Below are positions 24,178 to 38,127 of a stretch of 38,127 nt of DNA, in pieces. The notes below the pieces were generated by a model. The model worked only from the letters and a program-made list of their open reading frames with translations. It did not search any database and had not been told where the DNA came from. The stretch lies in NCBI RefSeq assembly GCF_020832205.1, contig NZ_JAFIFD010000022.1, positions 1-38,127 on the forward strand. The letters are read 5' to 3'. Position numbers and translations under genes: made by a program. Numbering within the stretch: the stretch's first letter is position 1; every line of letters begins with the position of its first letter. The stretch is from Exiguobacterium sp. (GTDB lineage: Bacteria > Bacillota > Bacilli > Exiguobacteriales > Exiguobacteriaceae).

Positions 24178-24238
24178 TTTCAAAAATCCCTTCTTTACTA
24201 TATGAAAGCCGAATATGCCGCGTCAGTCATACAGTGTC

Positions 24239-24268
24239 GTTATACGTTTGGAAAAATTAACCGTTCAA
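24239..24268 (-). promoter_or_regulatory. Second candidate promoter of mnaA
   Basis: On the minus strand: TTGAAC (24268-24263), an 18-base spacer, TATAAC (24244-24239); four and five of six matches. Confidence 0.45.
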
Positions 24269-24277
24269 TCCATGAGC

Positions 24278-24307
24278 ATTATACGCCTATTTTCGCAACT
24301 GAATCAA
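24278..24307 (-). promoter_or_regulatory. First candidate promoter of mnaA
   Basis: On the minus strand: TTGATT (24307-24302), an 18-base spacer, a perfect TATAAT (24283-24278). The -35 overlaps the stop codon of the upstream glycosyltransferase gene. Confidence 0.55.
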
Positions 24308-25839
24308 TTACAGGTTGATGACATTTTTGAAAACCAGGCGATTTCTTCAGCCACGACACGATCAATCCCGCATTTCGCTTGGATATGACGGCTCGCCGCT
24401 GCGGAAACCTGTAAAAAAAGGTCCTCGTCTTCAATTAGGCTTTTCAGATGGGCTGCAAGGGCTGCAACGTCTTCCGCCGGTGCCAACTGACCCGATTTCC
24501 CGTCCTCGACGAACTCTGAGATAGCGGCCACGTCGTTCGTGACCGGTACGAGTCCGCTGCTCATCGCCTCACACATCGAAACACCTTGCGAGTCTAGGCG
24601 TGTCGGGCATAAGAAGATGCCATTTGCTTGATGCAACTCATAAATCTTCTCACTCGACAAAAAGCGTCGCTCGACGATGATATTCGGAAGTTTCCTGATT
24701 TCGGCGAGCGTCTCGTCAAATAACGGACCATCTCCATAAAAAGAGAATGTCACGTCGTTGAACCAAGGTTCATTACGCAACGCGAGCACAGCCGCGACGG
24801 CCAGGTCATTTCCATACTTCGTCGTATGATAAGGACGAATCGACAAAACGTGAAACCGATGTTCAGGCGTCTTAGGCGTATATTGAAAATGCCGATCATC
24901 AATCGGGTTCGGAATTGTCGCACTTCGGGTCGTCACTTGTTTCGCATCGACCTCTGCCACATGTGACTTGAACCATTCGGAGACGTGAATGAACGACACG
25001 TTCTCATCGTCGCCCCGATACAATCGGGCCATCAAATCGAGTTGACGTTCTTTCCGCTCTTTCAAGCGAATGGCTTCACGTAAATCTTTCGCATTATCTA
25101 AATATTGAAACCAACGACGATACCACGCTTCCGTCTCCACCCCGTGCACCCACACGACTGCCGGGATACGCGGTTCAAACTGACGAATCATCTCATAAAT
25201 CGTTTCATTCAAAAAATGGATGAGCAGTGAAGTCGCACCGCTTTTACGGGCAATCCACTCACCGTAAAGCGGAGCCGCCTCGATGACGTCAATCCCCTCG
25301 TGTTCATACGTACGGATGACGTCCGTCTCAGAACGGACGATATGGACGAGCGGCCGAACGCCTCGACGGGCATACTCGAGCAGACGGGTGTGGATAAAGC
25401 CATGACGATACAAATGGCTTTCATGAGGATAGGCGGTCGAGATGACAAGTGTATTTGCTTCTGGGGGGGCGAACGGTTTTGTATCGGTCACCCCTTGAAG
25501 CCGAAGCGGCGTGACCCGCATCGTTCCCTCCCCACTTAGACGGTAATGCACTCGAACATGCGTTGCATCTTGGATTTTCACCCAGTTTGTTTTTGCAGGC
25601 TCAAGAGCAGTCGTATGCACCGTGTCATCTGCAAGGGTTTGTTCCAGTAAGAATCGGGCCGATAACGTCTCATCACAAGTCGCTTCAAACTCGAGCGCAA
25701 TCCAACTTAGACCGCTCTGCGGAATATCCTCAAAACCATGGTCGACTGTCGTCACTTCTACCTTCTTGAACTCGAGCTCGCCGTCAAGGCTGAGGCGGTA
25801 CAGTAGAGTACGTCCTTGGACGTGTACGTGCCGTCTCAT
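24304..25839 (-). CDS. Glycosyltransferase (GT4-like) with N-terminal beta-sandwich domain
   Basis: A 511-residue cytoplasmic protein. Residues 1-118 form a beta-rich accessory domain ending in RLSGEGTMRVTPLRLQG. The rest is a GT-B glycosyltransferase: VISTAYPHESHLYRHGFIHTR starts the acceptor half, and the donor half has HVLSIRPYHTTKYGND, FYGDGPLF and CPTRLDSQGVSMCEAMSSGLVPV (the E-x7-E-like site of GT4). Donor and acceptor cannot be told. ATG 25839 overlaps the stop of the coiled-coil gene (ATGA), so the two are translationally coupled; an upstream in-frame ATG lies inside that gene and is less likely. The N-terminal domain shares a motif with the 26380 protein. Confidence 0.87.
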   Translation of the reverse strand: MRRHVHVQGRTLLYRLSLDGELEFKKVEVTTVDHGFEDIPQSGLSWIALEFEATCDETLSARFLLEQTLADDTVHTTALEPAKTNWVKIQDATHVRVHYRLSGEGTMRVTPLRLQGVTDTKPFAPPEANTLVISTAYPHESHLYRHGFIHTRLLEYARRGVRPLVHIVRSETDVIRTYEHEGIDVIEAAPLYGEWIARKSGATSLLIHFLNETIYEMIRQFEPRIPAVVWVHGVETEAWYRRWFQYLDNAKDLREAIRLKERKERQLDLMARLYRGDDENVSFIHVSEWFKSHVAEVDAKQVTTRSATIPNPIDDRHFQYTPKTPEHRFHVLSIRPYHTTKYGNDLAVAAVLALRNEPWFNDVTFSFYGDGPLFDETLAEIRKLPNIIVERRFLSSEKIYELHQANGIFLCPTRLDSQGVSMCEAMSSGLVPVTNDVAAISEFVEDGKSGQLAPAEDVAALAAHLKSLIEDEDLFLQVSAAASRHIQAKCGIDRVVAEEIAWFSKMSSTCN

Positions 25840-26240
25840 CCCTGCACTTCCTTCCGAATGAAACGCGCCCATATAGAAGACTCATACTGATTCAATGCCG
25901 CTCGTAACGTGGCGTTCTCGCGCTCGAGTCGCTGTACGTCCGCGATTGCGGTGTCACGTACATTGACGCTCTCTTCGTAGCGCGCATGGAGCCCTTTATA
26001 TTTTTGCTGTTGCTGTTCGAGTTGGGTAGCGGTTTCTTGTTCAAGCGCCGCCCTTTCTTCCGTAAGTTGTTTGATGTCACGGGCATATTGACCGACTTTT
26101 TTCGTCAAGTCGCTGATCGTCTCGTTCAGTGTTTCGACCTCAGCTTCATACTTCTCATAGCGGATCAACGTTTTTTGCATCATGTTCTCGATCTCACGTT
26201 CTAGCGACTCATATTCAAGTTTCCAATCGATGTCACGCAT
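25836..26240 (-). CDS. Free-standing coiled-coil protein of the polysaccharide cluster
   Basis: A 134-residue soluble protein, nearly all one predicted coiled coil (residues 8-118, rich in Glu, Gln, Lys, Leu heptads such as QLTEERAALEQETATQLEQQ). It ends in a short aromatic-basic tail SSIWARFIRKE (121-131). That tail loosely resembles the S-x-x-W-R-x-x-x-x-(L)R segment often found after coiled coils in multi-domain glycosyltransferases. ATG 26240 has AAGGAG eight bases upstream; an earlier frame extension has no good site. Its stop overlaps the start of the 24304 glycosyltransferase, implying a physical partnership. I infer a scaffold or chain-length spacer; no enzymatic domain is present. 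Confidence 0.8.
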   Translation of the reverse strand: MRDIDWKLEYESLEREIENMMQKTLIRYEKYEAEVETLNETISDLTKKVGQYARDIKQLTEERAALEQETATQLEQQQQKYKGLHARYEESVNVRDTAIADVQRLERENATLRAALNQYESSIWARFIRKEVQG

Positions 26241-26273
26241 ACGTTTATCTCCTTCATCGTTGTCGTCTCTTCT

Positions 26274-26302
26274 ATTATGCCAAACAAAGCAGTCGATGTA
26301 CA
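26274..26302 (-). promoter_or_regulatory. Candidate extended -10 promoter inside the polysaccharide cluster
   Basis: On the minus strand: TGTACA (26302-26297), a 17-base spacer, CATAAT (26279-26274) preceded directly by TGG, an extended -10. It would start transcription of the coiled-coil and glycosyltransferase pair. Confidence 0.45.
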
Positions 26303-26379
26303 AAAGATGTTGAGATGGCACGAAAGGACCTCCTCTGTAACGAGTTCGGCCCTTTCATCCTATCTATTCTCATTTCCCC

Positions 26380-28881
26380 TTATCGATGGACACGTAAGTT
26401 TTGGTTGTCGATGCTAAGCATACGGTAGCCCTCAACGCCATATTCAGCCGTCGATTGTCCTGTCGTAATCTTCTCGAACGATTCATTGATCGATTCTTTT
26501 AAGAAAATGTCCATTTTTGCCACAGCCTTGTCGAATTGGAGTGCTGGTACATACGCGAATTCCGACTCTTCATTGATCATGTGCGCCTCACCGGCCTCGA
26601 CGACCGTGTATGACGCTTTCCCGATCAACTCCGCCGTGCTGTACTTCGTCGCCAGCATCAAGTCTTTCAAATAATCGTCTCCGTACTGATACGCCGCATT
26701 GAAGCTTGTGACATACTCTGTCCCAATCATCTTTCCAAGCGTTTGATATTTCGCCAAGCTCTCTTTCCAATACACCTGAATGGTCGCATCGTCCTCAAAG
26801 CGTTTGTACAAGTCCTTCATGTCTTCGTTTGCCTCGACAATCAAATAGAGTGTCTTGGCCTCATAACTCTGACGTTTGAATTGTTCGATGAGCCGGTCGA
26901 CATCGCTCATCTGCGCTTCTTGAACGACTGCCACGGTCGGGACATGCACACGATATGGAATCTTCGCCTTGTCCAAAATATACGTCAAGCGATGCTCGTA
27001 CGTATGATGTTCAAGTACTTCCCGAATCCCGCGCACTTGTTTGTCATGATATACCGCCTCATCGGTCATTAGTTCTTTGAGTGCAGCCTCCATCTTCTCC
27101 TCATCTTCGGTGACACTGACGAGCTCACCAAACATTTGCTCGACACCTAACGAATACGTACTGATAATCGGCGTCCCGCACAAGAGGCCTTCAAATACAC
27201 GACGTGAGAACATCGTCGGCGATTGTTTGACCGTGTTGATGTTCAGCATGATTTTGTAGCCTTTATACGCCTTATCAATCTCGTAAAACTCGAGCACGCC
27301 CTCGATATTCTCTTCGAACTCTTGAGGGAAGCGGTGGTTAGGCATCAAGTTGAATTGGTTCTTCTCGTAGTTGCGATCGTAAATCGTCAATCCGTAAGGC
27401 TTTGCGACGCGGAGAAGCCTGTCCATGTCACGTGCCCGCTCTTCATGGAGTGAGTAATAAGATCCCGCGAAACACGCTTTTGGAATACGTCCTTCCTTCA
27501 AGTTGATCGGGTTTTGCAACTTCGGTTGTCCAGCGAATGGCAGGGCATACACACGTCCGTGGCCACAATCTTCTTTATATGATGGGACGCGATTCTCGTC
27601 CGTCGTCATGACAATGTCCACAAGTTTCGCCGTTTCGATGAAACGATCATAGTGAACTGGATCTTCTTTGTTCCAGAACACGGTCGGGATGTTACGACGC
27701 TTACACCACGCGACGAGATTTCGGATCGTTTCTGCGTTCGTCTCCCCGTAATACCCAATCTTTTTATTCCAGAGACCGTTGTTGCCTTCCCATGCCGATT
27801 CGATGAAGATGAGGTCCGGTCGCTCCGTCATGATTTGTTCTTTCCAATAATCCGGGTGGAGCGGCAACAAGTCCGCCTCGAGCCGATAGTTTTCAAACGT
27901 AAATTTATCCATGATCACACCGATCTTGATGCGACCCAGGTCACGCGGTGCGAGATACCCCGTCTGATAAGCCTCGTGATCGTTGATCCACTCTTTCTCT
28001 TGATTGTTCACAGAAATCTCCTCTTCAATCTTTGATAGTTGTATTTCTCGAATCGTGAACGTGCCGCTACCTTTAACGTTCAAGGCGAGGCGCCACGTAT
28101 CGACGTCCCGATTCGGGCGCACACGTGTCACACCGTTGAACATCAAGTTCACAATCTCGACTTTCCGCTTCGTTTTCGATTCATATCCGACAAGCATCGG
28201 TATGACATCGATATCCGGTGAACGAGACCCGAGAATCGAGAACTCGTAGTAACCGTCATGTGTCACGTCCGCAAACGGTTCGGTCGGAAGTAGCGCATAG
28301 TTGTTATTTGTCTCGCGAAAAGAGATGTACTTCTTCTTGCCGCTTGGCAAGTTCACCATCGCATGCAACTCCCCGTCCTCGTCGTGGAGGCGGTAGTTCG
28401 CATTGTAAGTCCCGCCGTACCACTGACGGGCATCGATTGGGAGGCTGATTCGTTCATCCGGCAAGACAGCGATGTTTTGATACAGTGCCTCGACTCGCGT
28501 GTACGTCCCTTCTCCGTGCAATCGTACTTTGAGCGTGAACATGCTGTCGAGCGCTCCGAACTGCAGTGTCCGTGGTTCTGCCGCTTCGATGATGTGGCGT
28601 TTCGTGCTCCCGTTCGTCGCCTTTACTTCGACGACCAAATCGATACCTCCCGCATCAGACACTTCACCTTCAAGACCACAGACGATCGACATCTCTCCTA
28701 GAACCGGAATCGGTGTCTTTGTCAATTCGATATATGTGTAGGCATCTTCCCCGAGCGAAGCGGTCACTGTGTCGCCATCGACGCGTAACGCCTCAGACGG
28801 ACGGACATGCGCAATGAGGGGGAAACGCTCCGGTAAGAAAATCATCGGGCAGCTCAATCGTGTTGTTGTCATCGTGTTCAT
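26380..28881 (-). CDS. Large CgeB-type glycosyltransferase with accessory beta domains and GT2-like tail
   Basis: An 833-residue cytoplasmic protein in three parts. Residues 1-290 are two beta-sandwich domains, each ending in a similar motif (RLHGEGTYTRVEAL at 120-133; NVKGSGTFTIREIQL at 268-282). Residues 318-640 are a CgeB/DUF3880-like GT-B glycosyltransferase: RPDLIFIESAWEG, VFWNKEDPVHYDRF, CFAGSYYSLHEERARD and SRRVFEGLLCGTPIIST. Residues 647-800 look like a GT-A (GT2) domain, VAVVQEAQMSDVDRLIEQFKRQ to FNAAYQYGDDYLKDLML, but the DxD metal site is replaced by NAA. ATG 28881 follows GGGAGG and overlaps the upstream stop (ATGA). It probably builds the exported glycan; sugars unknown. Confidence 0.82.
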   Translation of the reverse strand: MNTMTTTRLSCPMIFLPERFPLIAHVRPSEALRVDGDTVTASLGEDAYTYIELTKTPIPVLGEMSIVCGLEGEVSDAGGIDLVVEVKATNGSTKRHIIEAAEPRTLQFGALDSMFTLKVRLHGEGTYTRVEALYQNIAVLPDERISLPIDARQWYGGTYNANYRLHDEDGELHAMVNLPSGKKKYISFRETNNNYALLPTEPFADVTHDGYYEFSILGSRSPDIDVIPMLVGYESKTKRKVEIVNLMFNGVTRVRPNRDVDTWRLALNVKGSGTFTIREIQLSKIEEEISVNNQEKEWINDHEAYQTGYLAPRDLGRIKIGVIMDKFTFENYRLEADLLPLHPDYWKEQIMTERPDLIFIESAWEGNNGLWNKKIGYYGETNAETIRNLVAWCKRRNIPTVFWNKEDPVHYDRFIETAKLVDIVMTTDENRVPSYKEDCGHGRVYALPFAGQPKLQNPINLKEGRIPKACFAGSYYSLHEERARDMDRLLRVAKPYGLTIYDRNYEKNQFNLMPNHRFPQEFEENIEGVLEFYEIDKAYKGYKIMLNINTVKQSPTMFSRRVFEGLLCGTPIISTYSLGVEQMFGELVSVTEDEEKMEAALKELMTDEAVYHDKQVRGIREVLEHHTYEHRLTYILDKAKIPYRVHVPTVAVVQEAQMSDVDRLIEQFKRQSYEAKTLYLIVEANEDMKDLYKRFEDDATIQVYWKESLAKYQTLGKMIGTEYVTSFNAAYQYGDDYLKDLMLATKYSTAELIGKASYTVVEAGEAHMINEESEFAYVPALQFDKAVAKMDIFLKESINESFEKITTGQSTAEYGVEGYRMLSIDNQNLRVHR

Positions 28882-29999
28882 AACGTACCTCCCGTGCCTA
28901 CAGTGTCCATCTCCATAAGAGCGACCATTTCTTCAGAAACCGTCTCAATGTCATAACGATCGCTGACGAAACGCTTCACTATCTCCGATTCGGCTTCCGG
29001 GTCGACTTTCATAATTCGGTCGGCCGCTTGCGTCACGTCCTCGATGATCCAGTCCCGGCGATAAATCGTCTCCGCTCCGTCCCAATGTCGGATGATTGGA
29101 TAGGCCCCGCTCGCCATCCCTTCGGCGACAGCGAGATGGAAGCTCTCGAAGTCACTCATCGATAGAATAAAACCGACTTGCTCATACCAAGACGCCATGT
29201 CATCCCCGTGCCCTGACCATTCGACACGGTCAGCCCAAGCCGACTCTTTCAATCGTGCTTGAATTGTTTGGTAATGATAACGCTCGTCTGCATTGTTCCA
29301 GATCCATGGCACTTGCTCCGGTCTCCGGCTCTTGATGACGAGACGGTAACGCGAATCTTGGTTCCATACTTGCTCGAACGTATCGAGTGCAAGATCGAGC
29401 CGCTTCAACGACGGCAGGACGCCGACGACACCGATTGTGAAACGTGCGTCCGCCCAATTTTTAGGGCGTGATAACCCGTCTGTGTCGACGTAGTTAGTGA
29501 TGAGTCGCATTTTTTGTGATTCGATTTTAAAGATGCGACGGAACTCTTCTAATATATAAGGCGAGATAGCGACAATCGCGTCGATATTCTCATACGTGAA
29601 CCGTTTCGGGAAGACGGTCTTCCGCTCTTGAGCGTGCATCCGGACGATCAGTTTTTGATGAGGGCGCTTGTAGCGCGAGTACCATTCGGCATTTCCGAGC
29701 CCCCACTCACAAAAGATGATGTCGGCCCACTCGATCAACTGCCGGCTCCGCGACTCGTCATGGACGCTATGGCTCGACCATTCATCGATTTGAATCTCGT
29801 AGCGGCCTTCCGACTCAAGTCGTGACAAGAGGGGACGGATAAACTTCAAGTCGTGCCCGGCGAAGACGACTTTCTTCAATGCCGCGGAAACCGCGTCCGC
29901 TGTCGACGTGATGCCGTCGAGTGCGTCGCGTCGCGCATGGGCACGTTCGAGTTCGGCTTTTACTTTTCGTTGCAAGGCGTTAAAATCCAAATCTAACAT
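28878..29999 (-). CDS. Glycosyltransferase, GT4-like
   Basis: A 373-residue protein. Residues 8-30 form a short charged helix (LQRKVKAELERAHARRDALD), then a GT-B fold: KKVVFAGHDLKFIRPLL, ADIIFCEWGLGNAEWYSR, LIVRMHAQERKTVFP, AIVAISPYILEEFRR, and a donor half with FTIGVVGVLPSLKRLDLALD and FESFHLAVAEGMASGAYPII. The last run places the acidic residues of the GT4 active site. It lies three bases after the 88-residue coiled-coil gene and overlaps the 26380 gene, so all are one translation-coupled block. Donor and acceptor unknown. Confidence 0.88.
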   Translation of the reverse strand: MLDLDFNALQRKVKAELERAHARRDALDGITSTADAVSAALKKVVFAGHDLKFIRPLLSRLESEGRYEIQIDEWSSHSVHDESRSRQLIEWADIIFCEWGLGNAEWYSRYKRPHQKLIVRMHAQERKTVFPKRFTYENIDAIVAISPYILEEFRRIFKIESQKMRLITNYVDTDGLSRPKNWADARFTIGVVGVLPSLKRLDLALDTFEQVWNQDSRYRLVIKSRRPEQVPWIWNNADERYHYQTIQARLKESAWADRVEWSGHGDDMASWYEQVGFILSMSDFESFHLAVAEGMASGAYPIIRHWDGAETIYRRDWIIEDVTQAADRIMKVDPEAESEIVKRFVSDRYDIETVSEEMVALMEMDTVGTGGTL

Positions 30000-30002
30000 A
30001 GG

Positions 30003-30269
30003 TCATTTTTTCCTTTTCTTTTTGTTTTTATAGTTGGCGACTTTCCGCTTGAATGTCCAGTAAGATCGACTCAAACGGCCAAATTTCGATCCTGCGAGCG
30101 CTTCGTACTTCTTGTCGATTTGCTCGTAATCTGCCTCGAGTTTCTGGTATTCAACCTCGAGGTCGCGCAGACGCGTCTCCGTCTCCACCACGCGTTCGAT
30201 GAGCGCCTCGTTCAGACGAAGACTTTCGATATAATCGTTCAAATACTTCCGTTCTTGTTGTCTATCCAA
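30003..30269 (-). CDS. Small coiled-coil protein with basic tail
   Basis: An 88-residue protein beginning at TTG 30269, with AAGGAGA upstream. Residues 5-58 form a coiled coil (LIERVVETETRLRDLEVEYQ). A segment GSKFGRLSRSYWTFKRKV (60-77) comes next and the end is a lysine-rich tail KNKKKRKK. It parallels the 134-residue coiled-coil protein: coil first, Ser/aromatic/Arg tail second, glycosyltransferase gene immediately after (three bases). The basic tail could bind the membrane or an acidic polymer. No catalytic motif. I infer a scaffold or ruler for the glycosyltransferases. Confidence 0.75.
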   Translation of the reverse strand: MDRQQERKYLNDYIESLRLNEALIERVVETETRLRDLEVEYQKLEADYEQIDKKYEALAGSKFGRLSRSYWTFKRKVANYKNKKKRKK

Positions 30270-30271
30270 AA

Positions 30272-30760
30272 TTAAGTCTCCTTTTTAAAAAGTTCAATCG
30301 TCGCATGTCCGAGTGTCACATCGACGGGTTTGACGTCATGCAAAATGTAGCGATAGGCAAATTTTAAGAATTTTGTTTCGGGCCGGAGCTCAAACGTCTC
30401 GTCGACATAGTACGAGTCTCCGTCTTGTTTGAGTGTACGCACATCCATGTCGAGCTTACGACGTTCATCGTATTGAAGCAAGAACAATTCGAATTCGTGC
30501 GGCTCGGTCGAGTTGATTCGGAACGAGGATTGGATTCGGACTTGATTTTCCCCGCGCACGAACAGCTCGTCTCGATAAATTTTGCTTGGCGGCAAACTGA
30601 ATGGTTGATCGAACGATTGGATGTATAGTTTATCATCGAGCGATGTCGGACGAAGCTCGAACACGGCCGTCCAATCTTTCTCGGTCGAGCGAATTTTGTC
30701 CTTGACCCCGACGTTTGGATAGTAATTATAGATAGCTGGTAGTAAGTTGATGATTCTCAT
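30272..30760 (-). CDS. Unrecognised beta-rich protein of the polysaccharide cluster
   Basis: A 162-residue soluble protein with no signal peptide or membrane helix. Hydrophobic and polar residues alternate (DWTAVFELRP, YVDETFELRPETKFLKFAYRY, DVTLGHATIELFKKE), suggesting a beta sandwich. The closing ...VTLGHATIELFK resembles the ends of the accessory domains in the 24304 and 26380 glycosyltransferases, but the GxGT motif is absent. ATG 30760 follows AAGGGGA. It is the first gene after the tagH terminator and lies two bases before the 88-residue coiled-coil gene. Possibly a free-standing carbohydrate-recognition module; no function is known to me. Confidence 0.72.
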   Translation of the reverse strand: MRIINLLPAIYNYYPNVGVKDKIRSTEKDWTAVFELRPTSLDDKLYIQSFDQPFSLPPSKIYRDELFVRGENQVRIQSSFRINSTEPHEFELFLLQYDERRKLDMDVRTLKQDGDSYYVDETFELRPETKFLKFAYRYILHDVKPVDVTLGHATIELFKKET

Positions 30761-30774
30761 CGTCTTCCCCTTCT

Positions 30775-30810
30775 CTTAAAAAAGTGCCCCTCGACGCCGA
30801 GGGGCACTTT
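30775..30810 (-). terminator. Strong terminator after tagH
   Basis: A 13-bp perfect stem AAAGTGCCCCTCG (30781-30793 with 30798-30810) and a four-base loop, followed on the minus strand by six T residues. It lies between tagH and the next gene of the cluster, so genes below depend on read-through or another promoter. Confidence 0.93.
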
Positions 30811-30841
30811 CACTGTTGATTCGCAAAAGATGCGCCACTAC

Positions 30842-31675
30842 TCATCGGGCGAGGATGGTCGTCTCCCCAAGACCCGTGTCCGCGAGGACGGTCGTGCGGA
30901 CCGCCTGTTTGGATTGTTTGAATTGTGCTTGCTGCTCTTTCGTCAAATGCCTGAACCAAAATAGAAACTTGTTATACTCTTTGATCACGTCTTTCGATGA
31001 TCCATACATCCTGACTTCCCCATACTCGAGCCACAGCACTTTCGTACAGAAGTCACGGACTTGATTGATGGAGTGGCTAATGAAGAAAATGGTTTTGCCC
31101 TTCTTCTTGAACTCATTCATCCGACGGATACACTTGTCCGTGAATGTTTGATCTCCGACCGAGAGCGCCTCATCGACAATCAAAATATCGGGATCGATAT
31201 TAATAGAAATCGCAAAGCCGAGACGGGCTTTCATGCCGCTTGAATACGTCTTAACCGGTTGATGGATGAAATCACCGATGTCGGCGAAGTCGATGATATC
31301 GGGTGTAAGAGCCTCGATTTCTTTTTTCGTCAAGCCGAGCATAAGCCCTTTAAGCTCGATGTTGTCCATTCCCGACAAGTTCCCGTTCAGACCTGACGAA
31401 ATAGCGATGAGCGATGGCTTACCGGCGAGTGTGATTCGTCCGTGCGTCGGTGGCATGACATCGGCAAGCAAGTTCGACATCGTCGATTTTCCAGAACCGT
31501 TGATACCAATGATTCCGACCACTTCACCGGGAGGTACCTCGAACGATACTTCCTTCAACGCATAAAACTGTTTGCCGCGCGCTTTACCGGTCATCATTTC
31601 CGTCAGCTTGTCCATCGGCTTGCGATAGAGCGTATAGCGTTTCGATACGTTCTCAAACTTCACATGTGCGCTCAT
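30842..31675 (-). CDS. tagH: TagH-like ABC transporter ATPase (polysaccharide/teichoic acid export)
   Basis: A 277-residue ATPase. Walker A GINGSGKST (57-65), signature YSSGM (144-148), Walker B ILIVDEA (164-170) and SVGDQTF after it are the teichoic-acid/O-antigen exporter type. It closely follows TagH in SHSINQVRDFCTKVLWLEYGE. B. subtilis TagH is about 527 residues; this one lacks the extra C-terminal membrane/outer part, so it is the short form. ATG 31675 is chosen because AGGAGG ends six bases upstream, while ATG 31681 directly abuts that site. With the TagG-like permease it moves undecaprenyl-linked polymer outward. Confidence 0.93.
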   Translation of the reverse strand: MSAHVKFENVSKRYTLYRKPMDKLTEMMTGKARGKQFYALKEVSFEVPPGEVVGIIGINGSGKSTMSNLLADVMPPTHGRITLAGKPSLIAISSGLNGNLSGMDNIELKGLMLGLTKKEIEALTPDIIDFADIGDFIHQPVKTYSSGMKARLGFAISINIDPDILIVDEALSVGDQTFTDKCIRRMNEFKKKGKTIFFISHSINQVRDFCTKVLWLEYGEVRMYGSSKDVIKEYNKFLFWFRHLTKEQQAQFKQSKQAVRTTVLADTGLGETTILAR

Positions 31676-31693
31676 AAGCATCCTCCTAACGGA

Positions 31694-32491
31694 TTAAATG
31701 TAATCGATAAAGTAACGGCGGAAACGGACGTGTACGACGGCCCCTAAGAAGAAGATCGTCAAGACGACACCCCAATAATAGAGACCATACTGCCAGTTGT
31801 CCGCGAGCCATGACGTGCCGAGGAACATCGAACGATATCCCTCGACGAGATAATAGAGCGGATTGATCATCAAAATTTTCGCAAACAGACCTGTCGGCAC
31901 CCAAAAGATCGGGGTCAAATACATCATCATCCGCATGACGGACATGAGCAGGTTTTGCAAATCGCGGACAATCGTCGTCAAAGCAGACGTGAGCAGTGCG
32001 AGCGCATACAAGAGCGCAAGCGCCGACACAATCAAGTACAGGAGCCAGAGGGAGTGAAGACCTGGCGTGTAACCGTACGCCAACATCAGCACGAACGTAA
32101 TGAGCACCATACCTAAATGTCGATAAAATAGCGAAAGAATGACGTATGCCGGAATCGTACTGATTGGAAAACTCATCTTCGAGACCATCGCAACCTTCGA
32201 ATAGACCGAGCGGGCCCCGGTCGTTATTGCCGGGCTGATGAAGAACCAGACGACAATCCCGGAGACGAGCCATGGAAGAAACGGCACACCATCGATTGGC
32301 GCGCCGCTTCGAATTCCAAATCCGAATACAAACCAGTACACCGCGACTTGTAGTGTCGGGGTGAACAGCTCCCAGAAGAAGCCAAGGTATTGCATACTGT
32401 TGTTACTTTTCGCTTCATATAAAGACAATCTGAAAATAAGGTACAGGTTCTCATATAGTTCGAGTAAGACTTGTTTCGCAGATTGCATCAT
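31694..32491 (-). CDS. tagG: TagG-like ABC transporter permease (polysaccharide export)
   Basis: A permease of about 265 residues, with six membrane segments after an amphipathic N-terminus (YLIFRLSLYEAKSNNSMQYL, FFWELFTPTLQVAVYWFVFG). Family motifs PFLPWLVSGIVVWFFISPAI, RDLQNLLMSVMRMMMYLTPIFW and NPLYYLVEGYRS are clear. It forms the channel for an undecaprenyl-linked wall polymer, energised by TagH. The start is ATG 32491, or ATG 32488, after AAGG; a GTG at 32497 also fits the frame. It begins within ten bases of the dehydrogenase stop and lies 18 bases before tagH, so these genes are one operon. Confidence 0.93.
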   Translation of the reverse strand: MMQSAKQVLLELYENLYLIFRLSLYEAKSNNSMQYLGFFWELFTPTLQVAVYWFVFGFGIRSGAPIDGVPFLPWLVSGIVVWFFISPAITTGARSVYSKVAMVSKMSFPISTIPAYVILSLFYRHLGMVLITFVLMLAYGYTPGLHSLWLLYLIVSALALLYALALLTSALTTIVRDLQNLLMSVMRMMMYLTPIFWVPTGLFAKILMINPLYYLVEGYRSMFLGTSWLADNWQYGLYYWGVVLTIFFLGAVVHVRFRRYFIDYI

Positions 32492-32498
32492 CTTCACC

Positions 32499-33782
32499 TT
32501 AAAGCGTGATATTCGCTTTCGTGTGATCGTACAAGTTACCGTAGTTGACGACCGTCACGTCCCCTTCTGCCTTGACGATGTTGCGTGTGTCAAAAATCAT
32601 CGAGCGGCGCATCGAACGTTCGAGCTCAGCGAAATCAAGTGCTTTGAACTCGTTATGGTCGACGAGGATGAGGACGAGGTCCGCTCCTTCGAGTGCTTCT
32701 TCTTTCGATACGAGCTCAAAGTGTTTCGACGATGAGACCGGGACGTGCGGATCATGGACGGCGACGTTCATGCCCTGCTCGAGCATCATTTCGATGATCT
32801 CGACGGCTGGGCTTTCACGCATGTCGTCGACGTTTCCTTTGTATGTCACGCCGAACGCCGCGATTTTCGCATCCGTTTGACTAGATACAAGTTTTTGTAC
32901 GTTCTCGACAACGTAAGCAGGCATCGATACGTTCGTGTCGCGTGAGAGCTTGATGATTTTCGCGAGCTCAGGCTGTTTCGCGACGATGAAGTACGGGTCG
33001 ACTGCCAAGCAGTGTCCGCCGACACCTGGCCCTGGGCTGTGAAGGTTGACACGCGGGTGCTTGTTCGCCATCTCGATGACGTCGAGGACGTTGATGTCGA
33101 GGGCGTTACATACTTTCGCGAGTTCGTTCGCGAGGGCGATGTTGACGTCACGGAACGTGTTTTCCATGAGTTTCGACATTTCAGCCGTCTTCGCATCCGT
33201 CTTGATGATCTCACCTTTAACGAACGTGCCGTATACTTTCGCACCGGCTTCTGCGCAGTCAGGCGTGATTCCGCCGACGATACGGTTGTTGTAAACGAGT
33301 TCATGCAAGATTTGGCCTGGGAGCACGCGCTCCGGGCAGTGGACAAGGAAGATGTCTTCGCCGACTGTGAAGCCTGCCGCTTCGACGAGTGGCTTGACGT
33401 GGTCATCCATCGTACGTGGTGCGATTGTCGACTCGACGATGATGACGTTTCCTTTCTCGACATATGGAAGGACGCGTTTCGTCGCTTCAAGCACGTACGT
33501 GAGGTCGCACGACTTATGCTCGTCATCGTTGTTTGGTGTCGGGACGGCGATGATGAACGCGTCTGCTTTTTCTGGCTCAAGTGATGCGTGGAACTTACCT
33601 TTGGCAACGACGTCTTTTACAACGTCTTCGAGGCCTGGCTCTTCAATGTGGATTTCACCACGGTTCAATTTATCGACAACTGACTGATGAATGTCCACAC
33701 CGACGACGTCGACGCCGTATTGAGCGAAGACCGCTGACGTTGGGAGTCCAATATATCCTAATCCAATCGTACAAACTTTCAT
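32499..33782 (-). CDS. wecC: UDP-N-acetyl-D-mannosamine dehydrogenase (WecC-like)
   Basis: A 427-residue NAD-dependent nucleotide-sugar dehydrogenase. The N-terminus GLGYIGLPTSAVFAQYG is the dinucleotide fold. HCPERVLPGQ (148-157), NTFRDVNIALANELAK (208-223) and GPGVGGHCLAVDPYFI (251-266), with catalytic Cys258, fit the UDP-ManNAc/WecC group better than UDP-glucose dehydrogenases (usually GGSCFPKD). Oxidising UDP-ManNAc twice yields UDP-ManNAcA, and the 23065 epimerase supplies the substrate. ATG 33782 has GGAGG nine bases upstream. It is first gene of the cluster, behind a clear sigma-A promoter. Confidence 0.92.
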   Translation of the reverse strand: MKVCTIGLGYIGLPTSAVFAQYGVDVVGVDIHQSVVDKLNRGEIHIEEPGLEDVVKDVVAKGKFHASLEPEKADAFIIAVPTPNNDDEHKSCDLTYVLEATKRVLPYVEKGNVIIVESTIAPRTMDDHVKPLVEAAGFTVGEDIFLVHCPERVLPGQILHELVYNNRIVGGITPDCAEAGAKVYGTFVKGEIIKTDAKTAEMSKLMENTFRDVNIALANELAKVCNALDINVLDVIEMANKHPRVNLHSPGPGVGGHCLAVDPYFIVAKQPELAKIIKLSRDTNVSMPAYVVENVQKLVSSQTDAKIAAFGVTYKGNVDDMRESPAVEIIEMMLEQGMNVAVHDPHVPVSSSKHFELVSKEEALEGADLVLILVDHNEFKALDFAELERSMRRSMIFDTRNIVKAEGDVTVVNYGNLYDHTKANITL

Positions 33783-34227: not shown

Positions 34228-34611
34228 CTATTCCTGCACAAGATCATTCACAAGCGTAGTTTGTCCACCCTTCCACTTCCACTTGCCATCTTCCTTCCTA
34301 TAAATGTGCAGTGCCCAAAAACGGCCTTCATACGCATTTGTGCCCAAAATAAATTTCTCTTCAGTTAGCGTATCAACAATTGCGATATTTTCATGAACTT
34401 CCTCCTGAAACGTTAACATTTGTTGGCTAATCCATTGAATCGCTTCAGGGTCGACGAAAAGGTCTAAGTACGTCTCTTTGTCAAATTGCCGTCCGCTCGA
34501 ATCCACGTAACGGAACATATCACTCATCAAGTCGCGCATTTCTCCGAGATCACCCTTCAATTGAGCTGTTAAACGTTCAGTTGCCAAGTCACGCATTGTA
34601 TAAGTGTTCAA
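34228..34611 (-). CDS. Small SnoaL/NTF2-like (DUF4440-type) protein
   Basis: A cytoplasmic protein of about 127 residues: an N-terminal helical part with LTAQLKGDLGEMRDLMSDMFRYVDSSGRQFDKETYLD, then strands ending GRFWALHIYRKEDGKWKWKGGQTTLV. The helix-then-sheet layout and the WALHIYRKEDGKWK closing strand fit the NTF2-like fold of DUF4440/SnoaL proteins, which bind small molecules or act as simple enzymes. The start is uncertain: TTG 34611 has GAAAGGGTGA eight bases upstream; ATG 34596 and a GTG at 34665 are alternatives. It follows the CotH gene by about 40 bases on the same strand, so it is probably co-transcribed. AT-richer than its neighbours. Confidence 0.65.
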   Translation of the reverse strand: MNTYTMRDLATERLTAQLKGDLGEMRDLMSDMFRYVDSSGRQFDKETYLDLFVDPEAIQWISQQMLTFQEEVHENIAIVDTLTEEKFILGTNAYEGRFWALHIYRKEDGKWKWKGGQTTLVNDLVQE

Positions 34612-34651
34612 AAGTTCATTCACCCTTTCAGCGAAAGTGTAGCACAATCCC

Positions 34652-36913
34652 CTATTCAAAGGCACGCCTCACTTGTTCACGTACCCGTTCTGGGCGCAAT
34701 TCAGCGAAAATTTTCATTTTTTCCAGTTCGGCCTCCCACGCCGTGACGGACTCGATGTTTTGCCAACGGTCAATCGAGCGCGGAAGCTCGGGCTCGATGA
34801 CGGTTTTCATCTCGTTCAATACGCGAGTCATCCGCTCCGTCTCAAACGTCTCCTCGAGCAAGGTGTCCATGATTGCTGTAAATCGTTGTTCTCCCTCTTC
34901 AGTCGAAACAAGCGACCGGAACAACACCGTCTCCGGGCGTTCTGCTAAGAAGTGGGCAATCAAGTCCTCCTCGACTCCCTCCTCAATAGGCAGGAGCTGT
35001 GAGAACCCTTGGTCTAAGTCATAGACAAGCCAGCGCCATTTTCCGTCATGCCCGTTCGGCCCTTCCGACACGGTGTTCACGGTCTTCCGCCACATCTTCG
35101 TGTTGTTGTATAACGTGTCCTTGTTTCCGAAGAACGATTGATAAGCGACGTATTCTAAGAAGTTATCGATGTCGACCCGCCCTTCGAGCTGCCGCATTCG
35201 TTCCTCGTCGGACAAAGTAGAGTCGGTCGCGATACGGACCGTCTCCCGATAATGAATCAAGTCAGCGTTTTTCCCGTGGTCGACCTCGAACCCGTCCTCG
35301 ACGTAACGGTTCGATTCGAGGATCGCGAGTTCATCAGGAGAAATACCGTATTTCTCATATAAATAATGTTCTCCATGCAGTTCTCTGACGTTTTGAATCC
35401 CCCAGTACTCTCCGTTGATCATCACGACGACAGGTTGAGAGGCTTGAATGTCGAGCGGGCGGTCAGCGACAAGGCGTTGCATATAGGCGTCACGTAACAA
35501 GGCGTGTTTCCAGTCGTTGCCGCCGTTTCGAAGCAACAACCGCTCAAATCGGTCCGCTTCAGACGTATTGAAGAACGGGTACAGGAACGTATTCTCCCCA
35601 TAATCGCTTCGGGCATAAAGACGGAGGCTCTTTTGGGCGTGTCCGCGTGAAAATCCGCCGTGGACGCGCATACCTGCGTCTTGTCGGAAAGCGACGGAGC
35701 CGTTACTTTCAAACCATTCAACCGTCACAGGCCGTTCCCATTCACGGCCACGTTGGAAGTAGTTCCCTTCCGCCCATTCCGTCCGTGCCTCGACATCCCC
35801 ACTCGTGAAGATCCCGGTCCGTTGATCGAACAAGTCAGCCGGGTCAACCGTCAGTGCCACGATCGGTAATCCGGATGCGAATGCGTCTTCCCGTAACACG
35901 AATGTGCGCGTCTCGACCGGACTAAACGCACCGTCTTGATATGTCGCGGCTCGGACAGTGAGTGCGTCCAGGACGTCCCCGGTGAACGACACAGCTTCTT
36001 CTAACGTCGTCGACTCGACAGCGAGCCGAGGTGCGTTCGGTAAATCAAGAGTGATCGGACCGTCTACTTTCGCAGAGCGAAGCGTCGGCTCGGTCCCGTC
36101 GAGCGTGTAGTAAATCGTTCCTGCTCCCGAGACGGTCAGTTGTTGACCTTCGGGATATACCCCGCTCTCAAGCGAGAATGAAGGTCTGATTGGTGACGGT
36201 TCGACGTCATGGTCATCGACTTGTGACAACACACTCGATAACACATTCAAGTCCACTGTCCCGTTTCCACTCACGTATAACCGTTCACTGATGGCTGACC
36301 CGCTCAGTGGAGAAAAGTCGCGAATTCGATTGTTACGAAGGTTGACGTCGACGAGTTGTCCGAATCCTTCTAGCTCATCAATCGAGGTCAGCTCATTTCC
36401 GCGCACATTCAAATGGGTCAAAGTCGATTGCATCGCCCCAATCGGTTCGAGCGTCTCAATCCGGTTGTCTCGGGCGTTCAATCGAATCAACTTAAGACCT
36501 TCGAGTGGTTCGAGCGACTCGAGTTGGTTGTGCTCGATATTGATTATCTCAATCCCTGGCGGCAGAGCCGGAAGCTTAGTGAGCAAATTGAAGCTGACAT
36601 CCAACGTCTTCAAATTCGACAACATGGACAAGTCAGGGAGCGTCGTTAAGACATTCTCGGATAACGTCAACGATTCGAGCGAATCGAAATACTCGATGCC
36701 CGTTAAGTCAGTCAAACCATAACCTGACAAATTGAGTTCGGTCACGTGCCGAACTTTGTTGTGGTTGAACGTCCCCAACGGCATGTTCAATTCGACAGCC
36801 AGCGCCTCTTCGAGCGCGGGAGCGGGGGTGATTCCCCGTTCGGAAATCACGTACATTCCGCCCCAAACGATGGCGAGCACGATGGCGAGCACAGTTAATT
36901 TCATTACTTTCAT
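34652..36913 (-). CDS. Membrane-anchored LRR protein with CotH kinase-like domain
   Basis: A 753-residue protein: an N-terminal helix (5-24) as signal anchor; leucine-rich repeats at about 56-220 (VTELNLSGYGLTDLTGIEYF, then LKTLDVSFNLLTKLP and more); a beta domain at 245-340 with YYTLDGTEPT, like the chitobiase C-terminal type; and a CotH domain at 348-740. CotH kinase features are present: LLLRNGGNDWKHALLRDAYM, INGEYWGIQNVRELHGEHYL, FGNKDTLYNNTKMW with Asp599 and Asn603-604, and the metal-binding YDLDQGF (D632, D634). B. subtilis CotH phosphorylates spore-coat proteins; this relative faces outward and its substrate is unknown. ATG 36913 follows AGGAGG. Divergent from the VTC gene. Confidence 0.9.
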   Translation of the reverse strand: MKVMKLTVLAIVLAIVWGGMYVISERGITPAPALEEALAVELNMPLGTFNHNKVRHVTELNLSGYGLTDLTGIEYFDSLESLTLSENVLTTLPDLSMLSNLKTLDVSFNLLTKLPALPPGIEIINIEHNQLESLEPLEGLKLIRLNARDNRIETLEPIGAMQSTLTHLNVRGNELTSIDELEGFGQLVDVNLRNNRIRDFSPLSGSAISERLYVSGNGTVDLNVLSSVLSQVDDHDVEPSPIRPSFSLESGVYPEGQQLTVSGAGTIYYTLDGTEPTLRSAKVDGPITLDLPNAPRLAVESTTLEEAVSFTGDVLDALTVRAATYQDGAFSPVETRTFVLREDAFASGLPIVALTVDPADLFDQRTGIFTSGDVEARTEWAEGNYFQRGREWERPVTVEWFESNGSVAFRQDAGMRVHGGFSRGHAQKSLRLYARSDYGENTFLYPFFNTSEADRFERLLLRNGGNDWKHALLRDAYMQRLVADRPLDIQASQPVVVMINGEYWGIQNVRELHGEHYLYEKYGISPDELAILESNRYVEDGFEVDHGKNADLIHYRETVRIATDSTLSDEERMRQLEGRVDIDNFLEYVAYQSFFGNKDTLYNNTKMWRKTVNTVSEGPNGHDGKWRWLVYDLDQGFSQLLPIEEGVEEDLIAHFLAERPETVLFRSLVSTEEGEQRFTAIMDTLLEETFETERMTRVLNEMKTVIEPELPRSIDRWQNIESVTAWEAELEKMKIFAELRPERVREQVRRAFE

Positions 36914-36954
36914 CTAAATCCTCCTGCTTATGCGTTTCAGCTTATAAGTGTGAT

Positions 36955-36983
36955 TTGCTTGTCGATTCTTGAAACAGTATACT
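36955..36983 (+). promoter_or_regulatory. Candidate promoter of the VTC-DUF4956 operon
   Basis: TTGCTT (36955-36960), a 17-base spacer, TATACT (36978-36983). The -10 matches five of six. The 140-base gap also contains a possible opposite extended -10 (TGCTATTCT on minus) for the CotH gene, so the two promoters would overlap. Confidence 0.45.
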
Positions 36984-37053
36984 AACAGAATAGCATACCT
37001 TTACAAATAATTAACATTCCTCTAAGACGGTTTAGACATAAGGGAGAGATTCG

Positions 37054-37794
37054 GTGGCGCAAGAAATCTTCAAACGTTATGAAATTAAATATTTGATCCC
37101 GTTTTCGAAATACCTCGAGTTGCGTGAGTTGATTATGCCTTATATGCATTACGACACGTACGGTAACCCGGAAGGAAAATACAATATCGTCAGTCTCTAT
37201 TTTGATTCGAGCGATAAGGCAATTTATTATGAGACGCGCAACAAGTTGCCGTTTCGGCAAAAGCTGCGTCTGCGCGTCTACGATCAGGCCAATCTTAACA
37301 GCGCTTCCTTTATCGAGGTGAAGCAGAAATTCAAAAACGTCGTCAACAAACGTCGGACAATTCTTCCACTCCATGAGGCATACGATATTTTGCATGATCC
37401 GGAGACCCCACTCGAATCAATCGATGCATCGAACCTACAAATTTTAAAAGAAGCACTTCACTTTCAACACTTATATGACTTGAAGCCGGACACGGTCGTC
37501 AGCTATGACCGTCAAGCGTTTTCGGGGACCTACGAAAAAGATTTGCGCGTCACGTTCGACTATAACCTCATGTGCCGACACGATGACCTGCGTATCGAGA
37601 ACGGTCCACAAGGTCATCACTTCATCGATCCCGGCCTCGTCGTCCTCGAAGTAAAAGTATCCGAGGTCGTCCCGTTCTGGCTCGCCCGAATTTTGTCAGA
37701 CCTCGAGTGTAACAAACAGAGCGTCTCAAAATTTTGTACGAGTGTGGAATTGTTAGAACAAGAAAACTTAAGTGAAAGTAGGATTTTATTATGA
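37054..37794 (+). CDS. VTC-domain protein, putative polyphosphate polymerase
   Basis: A 246-residue soluble protein made only of a VTC domain. Residues expected in the tunnel are present: K12 in RYEIKYLI, K70/R72/R74 in RQKLRLRVY, E88/K90 in FIEVKQK, R153 in SYDRQAF, E199/K201 in VLEVKV and K226 in SVSKFCTS. The yeast relative VTC4 makes inorganic polyphosphate from ATP; bacterial stand-alone forms are mostly untested. GTG 37054 has AGGGAGAG upstream. Its stop overlaps the start of a DUF4956 membrane protein (ATGA at 37791), so the two are coupled and probably act together at the membrane, polymer made inside perhaps being passed through or anchored. Confidence 0.9.
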   Translation: MAQEIFKRYEIKYLIPFSKYLELRELIMPYMHYDTYGNPEGKYNIVSLYFDSSDKAIYYETRNKLPFRQKLRLRVYDQANLNSASFIEVKQKFKNVVNKRRTILPLHEAYDILHDPETPLESIDASNLQILKEALHFQHLYDLKPDTVVSYDRQAFSGTYEKDLRVTFDYNLMCRHDDLRIENGPQGHHFIDPGLVVLEVKVSEVVPFWLARILSDLECNKQSVSKFCTSVELLEQENLSESRILL

Positions 37795-38127
37795 CCGATT
37801 TTTTTAATGAAGTGCGTCAACTTGCCGACGTCACTTCTCGCCTAACCGTTCTTGAAGCGGCGGCGGCCATTTTCCTCAGCTTCATCTTGACACTCTGTAT
37901 CGCCTATCTTTATAAGCGAACGCATACAGGGGCCCGCTATTCGCAGTCGTTCGTCCAGACGATCATCATCATGGGCGTCACCGTATCGGTCGTCATGATT
38001 GTCATCGGTAACAACGTCGCCGTCGCGTTCGGTCTCGTCGGGGCGTTCTCAATCATTCGTTTCCGGAGTGCGATGAGCGATCCGAAAGACATCGCCTTCA
38101 TCTTCTTCGGTATGGCGGCCGGTATCT
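37791..38127 (+). CDS. DUF4956 membrane protein, 3'-truncated
   Basis: The frame opens at ATG 37791 and runs off the window; 112 residues are visible of a usual 200-230. Membrane segments are at about 22-43 (LEAAAAIFLSFILTLCIAYLY) and from about 56 on (QTIIIMGVTVSVVMIVIGNN). The family hallmark GLVGAFSIIRFRSAMSDPKD, then IAFIFFGMAAGI, is intact. DUF4956 genes are commonly found next to VTC-domain and CotH genes; function unknown. Start-stop overlap with the VTC gene indicates coupled translation. Confidence 0.9.
   Translation, partial: MTDFFNEVRQLADVTSRLTVLEAAAAIFLSFILTLCIAYLYKRTHTGARYSQSFVQTIIIMGVTVSVVMIVIGNNVAVAFGLVGAFSIIRFRSAMSDPKDIAFIFFGMAAGI

Follow-up and report, generated by a model that had tools for sequence, protein, structure and literature searches.

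A Pel-free version of the CotH–VTC–DUF4956 gene set in Exiguobacterium, with leucine-rich repeats fused to CotH, as a candidate surface-phosphate module

We analyzed a 38,127-nt stretch of DNA (the window) from Exiguobacterium sp. that is one entire contig (NZ_JAFIFD010000022.1) of a 2.78-Mb draft genome (G000), and focused on three neighboring genes at its right-hand end that encode a CotH kinase-like protein, a VTC-domain protein and a DUF4956 membrane protein. The CotH gene (34652..36913, minus strand; Pfam, AlphaFold2 model and match to the kinase structure 5jd9) encodes 753 residues. These comprise, from the N-terminus and all on the minus strand, a putative membrane anchor or signal (residues 1–30 with a predicted helix at 2–25, 36824..36913; sequence and model helix), leucine-rich repeats (LRRs; residues 31–238, 36200..36823) that form an internalin-like solenoid by Pfam and structure comparison, a chitobiase-C/Fn3-associated beta domain (residues 239–345, 35879..36199; Pfam) and the CotH kinase domain (residues 346–753, 34655..35878; Pfam, model, 5jd9 comparison and profile). 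Across a divergent intergenic region of 140 bp (36914..37053, not assigned to a strand; alignment of six loci), the plus strand carries the gene of a 246-residue VTC-domain (triphosphate-tunnel) protein (37054..37794; Pfam, alignment and profile match to Vtc4). Its reading frame shares 4 bp with that of the DUF4956 membrane protein (37791..38127, plus strand; Pfam), of which the contig end leaves the first 112 residues. Pfam recognized the VTC frame (PF09359) at E = 1.6e-46 and the 112-residue DUF4956 fragment at E = 7.1e-13, and we are very confident of the identity of the three parts. An earlier, sequence-only reading of this DNA had described an anchored LRR, chitobiase-like and CotH protein, a 140-bp divergent gap and a VTC gene overlapping DUF4956; the last two are exactly as described, and for the first the Pfam domains, the N-terminal hydrophobic stretch and the model agree, its outward-facing orientation being what we infer.

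CotH, VTC and DUF4956 form a conserved unit. All three families are present in the same 8 of 19 Exiguobacterium genomes, and the other 11 contain none of them. Two arrangements occur in the genus: in type A (G000, G004, G005, G006, G008 and G009) an LRR–CotH gene, with a DUF4440 gene behind it, points away from VTC–DUF4956, and in type B (G002, G003 and G008) the genes are co-linear and lie behind PelG. Among 299 genomes of the phylum, the same 46 have both VTC and DUF4956 (the latter below cut-off in one of them), and 41 have CotH (including one below the family cut-off, G194, which lies outside the overlap); VTC and CotH coincide in 37 genomes against 6.3 expected (Fisher p = 3e-34, with shared ancestry ignored). 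DUF4956 lies within 2.5 kb of 52 of the 54 VTC genes, and CotH lies within 5 kb of 32 of them. Because the order of the three genes differs among loci (divergent, co-linear with CotH first, co-linear with CotH last), their closeness has been kept through rearrangement. For more distant comparisons we used named loci (L numbers), the best 80 of 323 matches to the VTC alignment, so chosen that proportions among them are not representative; 76 are outside Exiguobacterium, and L036–L039 correspond to Exiguobacterium G004, G009, G008 and G006 and were counted once. The VTC alignment worked as the query of this search, whereas a contig search with the LRR–CotH protein returned no relatives.

Co-occurrence in related genomes was one point on which the sequence-only reading had said it could fail, and the counts above bear it out; its description of the set as uncharacterised does not stand. 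In streptococci and clostridia, genes for CotH, a poly-phosphate polymerase (PPP), DUF4956 and DUF4832 adjoin pelDEADAFG, and regulation of Pel by phosphorylation has been proposed (PMC7112168; this and the other papers here are cited from excerpts). The products of Streptococcus intermedius SIR_1592–1594 are described as a CotH–FN3 protein that is secreted, one with a predicted polyphosphate-polymerase domain and an MgtC protein that spans the membrane and has its ACT domain inside the cell (PMC12345266). Loss of CotH or DUF4956 there cut aggregation to less than half in one medium, with more Pel when DUF4956 was deleted and less when CotH was; none of the four accessory-gene mutants stopped aggregating (PMC12345266). 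This Pel accessory group (cotH–PPP–DUF4956–DUF4832) and SIR_1592–1594 thus place side by side the same three families as the window, and the Pel operons of Exiguobacterium also hold a co-linear version of the trio. In the type B operon of G003, Pfam identified an epimerase-type first protein, DUF2194, a PelF-like glycosyltransferase (DUF3492), PelG, CotH, VTC and DUF4956. PelG reading frames have 491 residues in the trio-linked operons (G002, G003 and G008) and 522–557 residues in the other copies.

The window differs from the Pel accessory group in that its genome has no PelG match, the gene order is divergent, LRRs and the chitobiase-like domain are fused to CotH, and the neighboring genes are of wall-polymer type. 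PelF, PelG and PelADA gave no match within the window, which stops at the contig end, and PelG gave none in G000 and G009, two of the type A genomes. The remaining four of this type have PelG at a place apart from the locus, on another contig (G004 and G006) or at a distance of ~420 kb (G005) or ~485 kb (G008); a second PelG copy of G008 sits in its type B locus, ~86 kb from its type A locus. PelG also occurs in 8 of the 11 Exiguobacterium genomes that lack the trio. Outside the genus, 16 of the 76 loci have VTC, DUF4956 and CotH within 2.6 kb and lack any gene of the Cthe_2159 cluster described below. When these 16 were scanned for up to 10 kb on each side (less at contig ends), relatives of PelF, PelG or PelADA (E < 1e-20) were found in L106 alone, and L041 gave a weaker match to a PelF-like glycosyltransferase. 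Gene content therefore indicates that the module exists independent of Pel. The analyses in the excerpted PMC12345266 had found no syntenic arrangement outside the Pel locus, and neither the LRR–CotH version nor a Pel-free module was found in the open-licence full-text literature as far as its excerpts go. In NELoc-2 of Clostridium perfringens, VTC and CotH genes lie close together as in the window, no LRR fusion is mentioned in the excerpts, and a glycosyltransferase and a polysaccharide deacetylase stand alongside, unlike in the window (PMC2879425, PMC11677781); judging by their size and place, the 'tubulin' genes of that locus are probably DUF4956. What the sequence comparisons add to the already known three-family set is a Pel-free, LRR-fused version; they also give evidence that the set has a fourth component and that its partners can be exchanged.

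Pfam matched the 753-residue protein to CotH (PF08757; E = 2.6e-46, residues 416–742), LRR_4 (7.7e-17), CHB_HEX_C_1 (8e-9) and Fn3_assoc (5e-7). Its N-terminus has a lysine-bearing end followed by a hydrophobic stretch, so that by the positive-inside rule the protein probably faces outward. The AlphaFold2 model (mean predicted local distance difference test score, pLDDT, of 88) superimposed on the Bacillus cereus CotH kinase 5jd9 with a Z-score of 30.6 and a root-mean-square deviation of 2.7 over 338 aligned residues, and the CotH profile found the same entry at E = 9e-42; a single-sequence phmmer search of PDB sequences with the CotH domain, by contrast, gave no true relative. The aspartates D599 (35117..35119, minus strand) and D632 (35018..35020, minus strand) are identical in all 29 CotH sequences, and both align with Asp residues of 5jd9 in the alignment and profile match. 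We equated them with D228 and D251 of Bacillus subtilis CotH by way of a 23-residue spacing counted by eye; replacement of those residues inactivates the kinase, which phosphorylates Ser in the CotB and CotG proteins (PMC7821199). The window protein thus has, by sequence and model, a kinase fold with the Asp pair and an N-terminal anchor, and protein kinase activity is predicted. It resembles the Bacillus CotH spore-coat kinase (5jd9, 5jda) in fold and Asp pair, and differs from it in being anchored, in its LRR and beta domains and in the tie of its gene to VTC–DUF4956.

Fusion of LRRs to CotH in divergent order is shared by the window, five further Exiguobacterium genomes and the loci L040–L045, which come from two Jeotgalibacillus, Planomicrobium, two Sporosarcina (L043 and L045) and Halalkalibacterium. 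In two Sutcliffiella species (L046:9965-13859 and L048:10001-13875) the order is co-linear, VTC–CotH–LRR–DUF4956, and the LRR part is a gene of its own that encodes an anchored protein of ~200 residues between CotH and DUF4956. Salinicoccus (L047) has a separate LRR gene divergent from VTC–DUF4956, with CotH on the other side; Pfam confirmed the separate LRR genes of L046 and L047. The LRR part accordingly appears, from these gene structures, as a separable fourth component that is either fused to CotH or encoded on its own. At one further locus (L114:6379-10005), two tandem CotH genes precede VTC–DUF4956.

For the VTC protein, a profile of 51 sequences (alignment A6: 47 of the 76 named-locus sequences, the window and three of Pel type) found yeast Vtc4 over profile positions 2–230 of 236 at E = 1.4e-20; single-sequence phmmer with VTC against PDB sequences gave no true relative, whereas profiles found them. 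Fifteen positions are identical in 85 of 85 sequences (R8, E10, K12, K70, R72, R74, E88, K90, K99, R153, R165, E199, K201, S225 and K226, in the numbering of the window protein). With placement in the alignment by eye, R264, R266 and E426 of Vtc4, a triplet that was changed to inactivate the enzyme (PMC9911596), correspond to R72, R74 and E199, and the catalytic residue K458 (PMC4641920) corresponds to K226. These matches indicate that the protein keeps polymerase-type tunnel residues, and polyphosphate synthesis is its predicted activity. At sites where, in our by-eye reading, TTM tripolyphosphatases carry Glu, the window protein has the basic residues R8, K201 and, less surely, K99; E10 is acidic. 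The sequence-only claims of a fully retained VTC tunnel and of intact key residues in CotH are in this way borne out, by R72, R74, E199 and K226 in every VTC sequence aligned with Vtc4 and by the Asp pair in every CotH sequence. The yeast VTC complex (Vtc4 with Vtc1) couples polyphosphate synthesis with translocation (PMC9911596), and the window protein is like it in its triphosphate-tunnel domain, matching tunnel residues and membrane partner; it is unlike it in having 246 residues without an SPX domain and an MgtC-like membrane partner, and in being known here from sequence. The idea that VTC is the sole polyphosphate maker was rejected, as PPK (PF02503) is present in all 19 Exiguobacterium genomes.

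When the DUF4956 alignment A4 (57 of the 75 named-locus sequences and L036) was compared by hhalign with a profile of 18 MgtC proteins, the probability was 96.0 over 202 columns; reversed profiles gave 0.9 and the best of 30 column shuffles 1.2. The MgtC set came from 20 loci of other genera of the phylum, with L122 and L134 excluded as antisense open reading frames. The MgtC family PF02308 also matches the DUF4956 gene of G042 below cut-off (E = 7.7e-4), and MgtC itself was found in 0 of the 19 Exiguobacterium genomes. Modeling of a full-length relative gave five helices and an ACT-like C-terminal domain (mean pLDDT 80). The DUF4956 profile gave no match among PDB sequences, and Foldseek returned nothing at E <= 0.001 with the full model, whose membrane part was without a structural match; with residues 145–228 it returned ferredoxin- and ACT-like domains, the MgtC domain 7qa5 ranking 14th (E = 0.057). 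R90 and R92 of an RFR motif are invariant in A4 (58 of 58 sequences) and are kept by 85 of the 86 sequences of a wider set, and the motif is predicted at the cytosolic end of the third helix, with the topology taken from the positive-inside rule. On profile and model grounds, full-length relatives thus indicate that DUF4956 is a membrane protein of MgtC type that carries an ACT-like domain, the window copy being cut. DUF4956 (PF16316) is like MgtC in profile and in this C-terminal domain, and unlike it in forming a Pfam family of its own, in its RFR motif and in standing beside VTC in 52/54 and 76/76 cases. We do not present the MgtC link as new, as PMC12345266 in its excerpts already states an MgtC identity for SIR_1592.

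The secreted partner of the VTC–DUF4956 pair looks exchangeable, because in 53 of the 76 named loci outside the genus a protein of a Cthe_2159-containing cluster adjoins the pair. This is a BLAST cluster of which one member was tested (L053, carbohydrate-binding Cthe_2159 by Pfam, E = 1.7e-95). At 52 of the 76 loci the Cthe_2159-cluster neighbor is within 2 kb and no CotH is within 2.6 kb; one locus (L103) has both, seven have neither, and one of Cthe_2159 type (L100) has two CotH genes ~4 kb away. The putative alternatives are therefore CotH and a Cthe_2159-cluster protein. Loci of the latter kind (e.g. L053:11354-13255) are mostly clostridial and make up a second big lineage of the pair, and many have response-regulator and histidine-kinase-like genes nearby.

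To the left of the module, a cluster of wall-glycopolymer type (23065..33782, minus strand; Pfam and sequence comparison) lies next to the CotH gene and not around it, as the sequence-only reading had placed it. It includes a UDP-GlcNAc 2-epimerase, glycosyltransferases, a UDP-glucose dehydrogenase and an ABC exporter pair that we take to be TagGH-like; two small, coiled-coil-rich-looking proteins are encoded within it (30003-30269 and 25836-26321). Between this cluster and CotH lies a gene for a small DUF4440 (SnoaL-like) protein (34228..34665, minus strand; Pfam and genus comparison), whose real start, placed by homology, is probably near 34611 and which also follows CotH in five other Exiguobacterium loci of the window type. 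Relatives of the window ATPase (52% identical), permease (37%) and glycosyltransferase (35%) lie on one side of LRR–VTC–DUF4956 in Salinicoccus L047. Among neighbors picked by hand, Pfam recognized LytR-CpsA-Psr proteins in L040, L041 and L048 and a UDP-sugar dehydrogenase in L048; L041 has in addition a Glycos_transf_4 (TagO-like) enzyme, and S-layer-homology proteins are near the two Sporosarcina loci. In Anaeromonas (L108, 7374-14249) the run GH16–GT2–VTC–DUF4956–CotH–polysaccharide deacetylase is likely, from its gene content, an exopolysaccharide operon without Pel matches. The wall-polymer neighborhood is not constant, since the other Exiguobacterium type A loci adjoin genes that are presumably pab-like, near surface-type proteins; L028, for example, has subtilase and Ig-like proteins nearby (Pfam). 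An Ig-domain (Big_6) protein of the window (21569-22873) shares 33–35% identity with proteins from four named Exiguobacterium loci, where their genes closely follow DUF4440. In the window the wall-polymer cluster intervenes between the two, and may thus have been inserted.

Within the divergent gap, AACAGTATACT is identical in all six aligned type A Exiguobacterium loci, and the palindromic AGTATACT at 36976–36983 could serve as a −10 element for both strands. On the VTC side TTGCTT stands 17 nt ahead of TATACT, a candidate promoter assigned by eye; a promoter scan of the gap gave two matches against 0.6 (standard deviation 1.0) in shuffles, neither of which is the proposed element. The genes on the two sides of the gap differ in how far the window departs from its five genus relatives. 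Its CotH is 50–52% identical to theirs, which share 79% on average, and the chitobiase-C/Fn3-associated domain has the lowest identity of the CotH-protein domains (37–44%); DUF4440 is 56–59% identical, against 83–98% for G005 and its relatives. VTC is 88–91% identical (92% among the relatives), and DUF4956 is 97–99% identical over 112 residues (97% among the relatives). A fast-diverging surface part beside a stable inner pair would be in line with a variable target outside the cell. At four-fold sites the window agrees with its relatives at 35–43% in CotH, 28–33% in DUF4440 and 51–56% in VTC. The outlying CotH–DUF4440 pair would fit an exchange of alleles with a breakpoint near the divergent promoter; fast divergence also fits, because CotH falls below VTC at these sites among the relatives too (48–68% vs 58–81%).

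The reading that we favor, to which we give slightly less than an even chance, is a joint surface-phosphate function in which VTC–DUF4956 makes polyphosphate at the membrane and the surface is modified through a swappable secreted partner. VTC would draw on ATP to polymerize phosphate at the membrane's inner face, DUF4956 would dock VTC and pass or gate the product, with its RFR motif at the predicted cytosolic helix end, and the secreted partner would use or receive phosphate outside the cell. A near-constant pair of cytosolic tunnel enzyme and membrane protein, accompanied by a swappable secreted protein, would suggest a phosphate polymer that is used outside. Little ATP is expected there, and exported polyphosphate could serve CotH as its donor; the LRRs would select the target, either a surface protein or a wall glycopolymer. 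Two narrower versions are held with much less confidence: that polyphosphate is the phosphate donor of CotH seems doubtful to us, and it is unlikely that VTC–DUF4956 is a polyphosphate synthase–translocase that corresponds to yeast VTC, has a membrane part of MgtC type and supplies energized phosphate to exchangeable secreted partners outside.

Several observations weigh against the surface-phosphate reading. To our knowledge, MgtC is not known as a channel, and the halves of DUF4956 compared separately with MgtC scored 36.9% (membrane) and 47.5% (C-terminal). The invariant E10 of VTC retains one Glu of the hydrolase-type motif, and, given PPK throughout the genus, polyphosphate as such does not require VTC. 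Apart from D599 and D632, only five CotH positions reach 85% identity among the 29 sequences; 22 of the 54 VTC genes are without CotH within 5 kb; and the wall-polymer neighbors were chosen by hand, with no background rate for comparison. The literature, as far as its excerpts go, reports no activity for a VTC–DUF4956 pair from bacteria. In S. intermedius the excerpts report no change for the polymerase mutant, and this, together with the opposite effects of the CotH and DUF4956 deletions on Pel, disfavors a simple chain from polymerase to CotH (PMC12345266).

The same opposite effects, a raised Pel without DUF4956 and a lowered Pel without CotH, agree with the main competing explanation, a regulatory module that exports no polymer. 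Using the ACT domain and a small pool of polyphosphate, VTC–DUF4956 would sense the state of phosphate or energy and tune a polysaccharide or wall-polymer exporter, one component of which CotH would phosphorylate. The ACT-like domain of DUF4956 suits such a role; so do Salmonella MgtC, which according to PMC12345266 acts on ATP synthase and on PhoR, and the proposal of PMC7112168 that phosphorylation regulates Pel. We nevertheless think this explanation rather unlikely: CotH and the Cthe_2159-cluster proteins look secreted or lipoprotein-like (from starts read by eye and a model) and would for that reason be away from cytosolic ATP, and the trio is found without Pel and with differing polymer genes. 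Another idea is that CotH is a glycan phosphotransferase, which would place phosphate or a nucleotide part onto Pel, a teichoic-type polymer or another exopolysaccharide while VTC–DUF4956 supplies or recycles the donor. Some neighbors are polysaccharide synthases, LytR-CpsA-Psr proteins and deacetylases, the chitobiase-like and Fn3-associated domains adjoin the CotH domain, and carbohydrate-binding Cthe_2159 (one member tested) replaces CotH elsewhere. We know of no glycan substrate of CotH, however, and the targets of the B. subtilis enzyme are Ser residues of the proteins CotB and CotG (PMC7821199), so that we consider a glycan phosphotransferase improbable. Least probable is an extra phosphate store, with VTC a second polyphosphate maker and CotH a neighbor without a functional link. 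The chemistry of the VTC domain would allow it, and CotH is missing not only from the surroundings of the 22 VTC genes noted above but also within 2.6 kb at 59 of the 76 named loci; yet the overlap of CotH and VTC among genomes is far above expectation (37 vs 6.3), their adjacency is retained across several gene orders, and a plain storage role is unlikely because every genome of the genus already has PPK.

As the module is found in genomes without a PelG match, has LRRs either joined to CotH or encoded apart, and in places adjoins genes for wall polymers or other polysaccharides, its job would be more general than Pel. The window thereby offers a Pel-free setting in which to ask what role VTC-domain proteins have in bacteria alongside PPK and where a secreted CotH kinase finds its phosphate donor. 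If the synthase–translocase reading were true, the source of the phosphate donor of a secreted kinase would be answered, and LRR-steered CotH or Cthe_2159-type proteins would modify the wall polymer or matrix.

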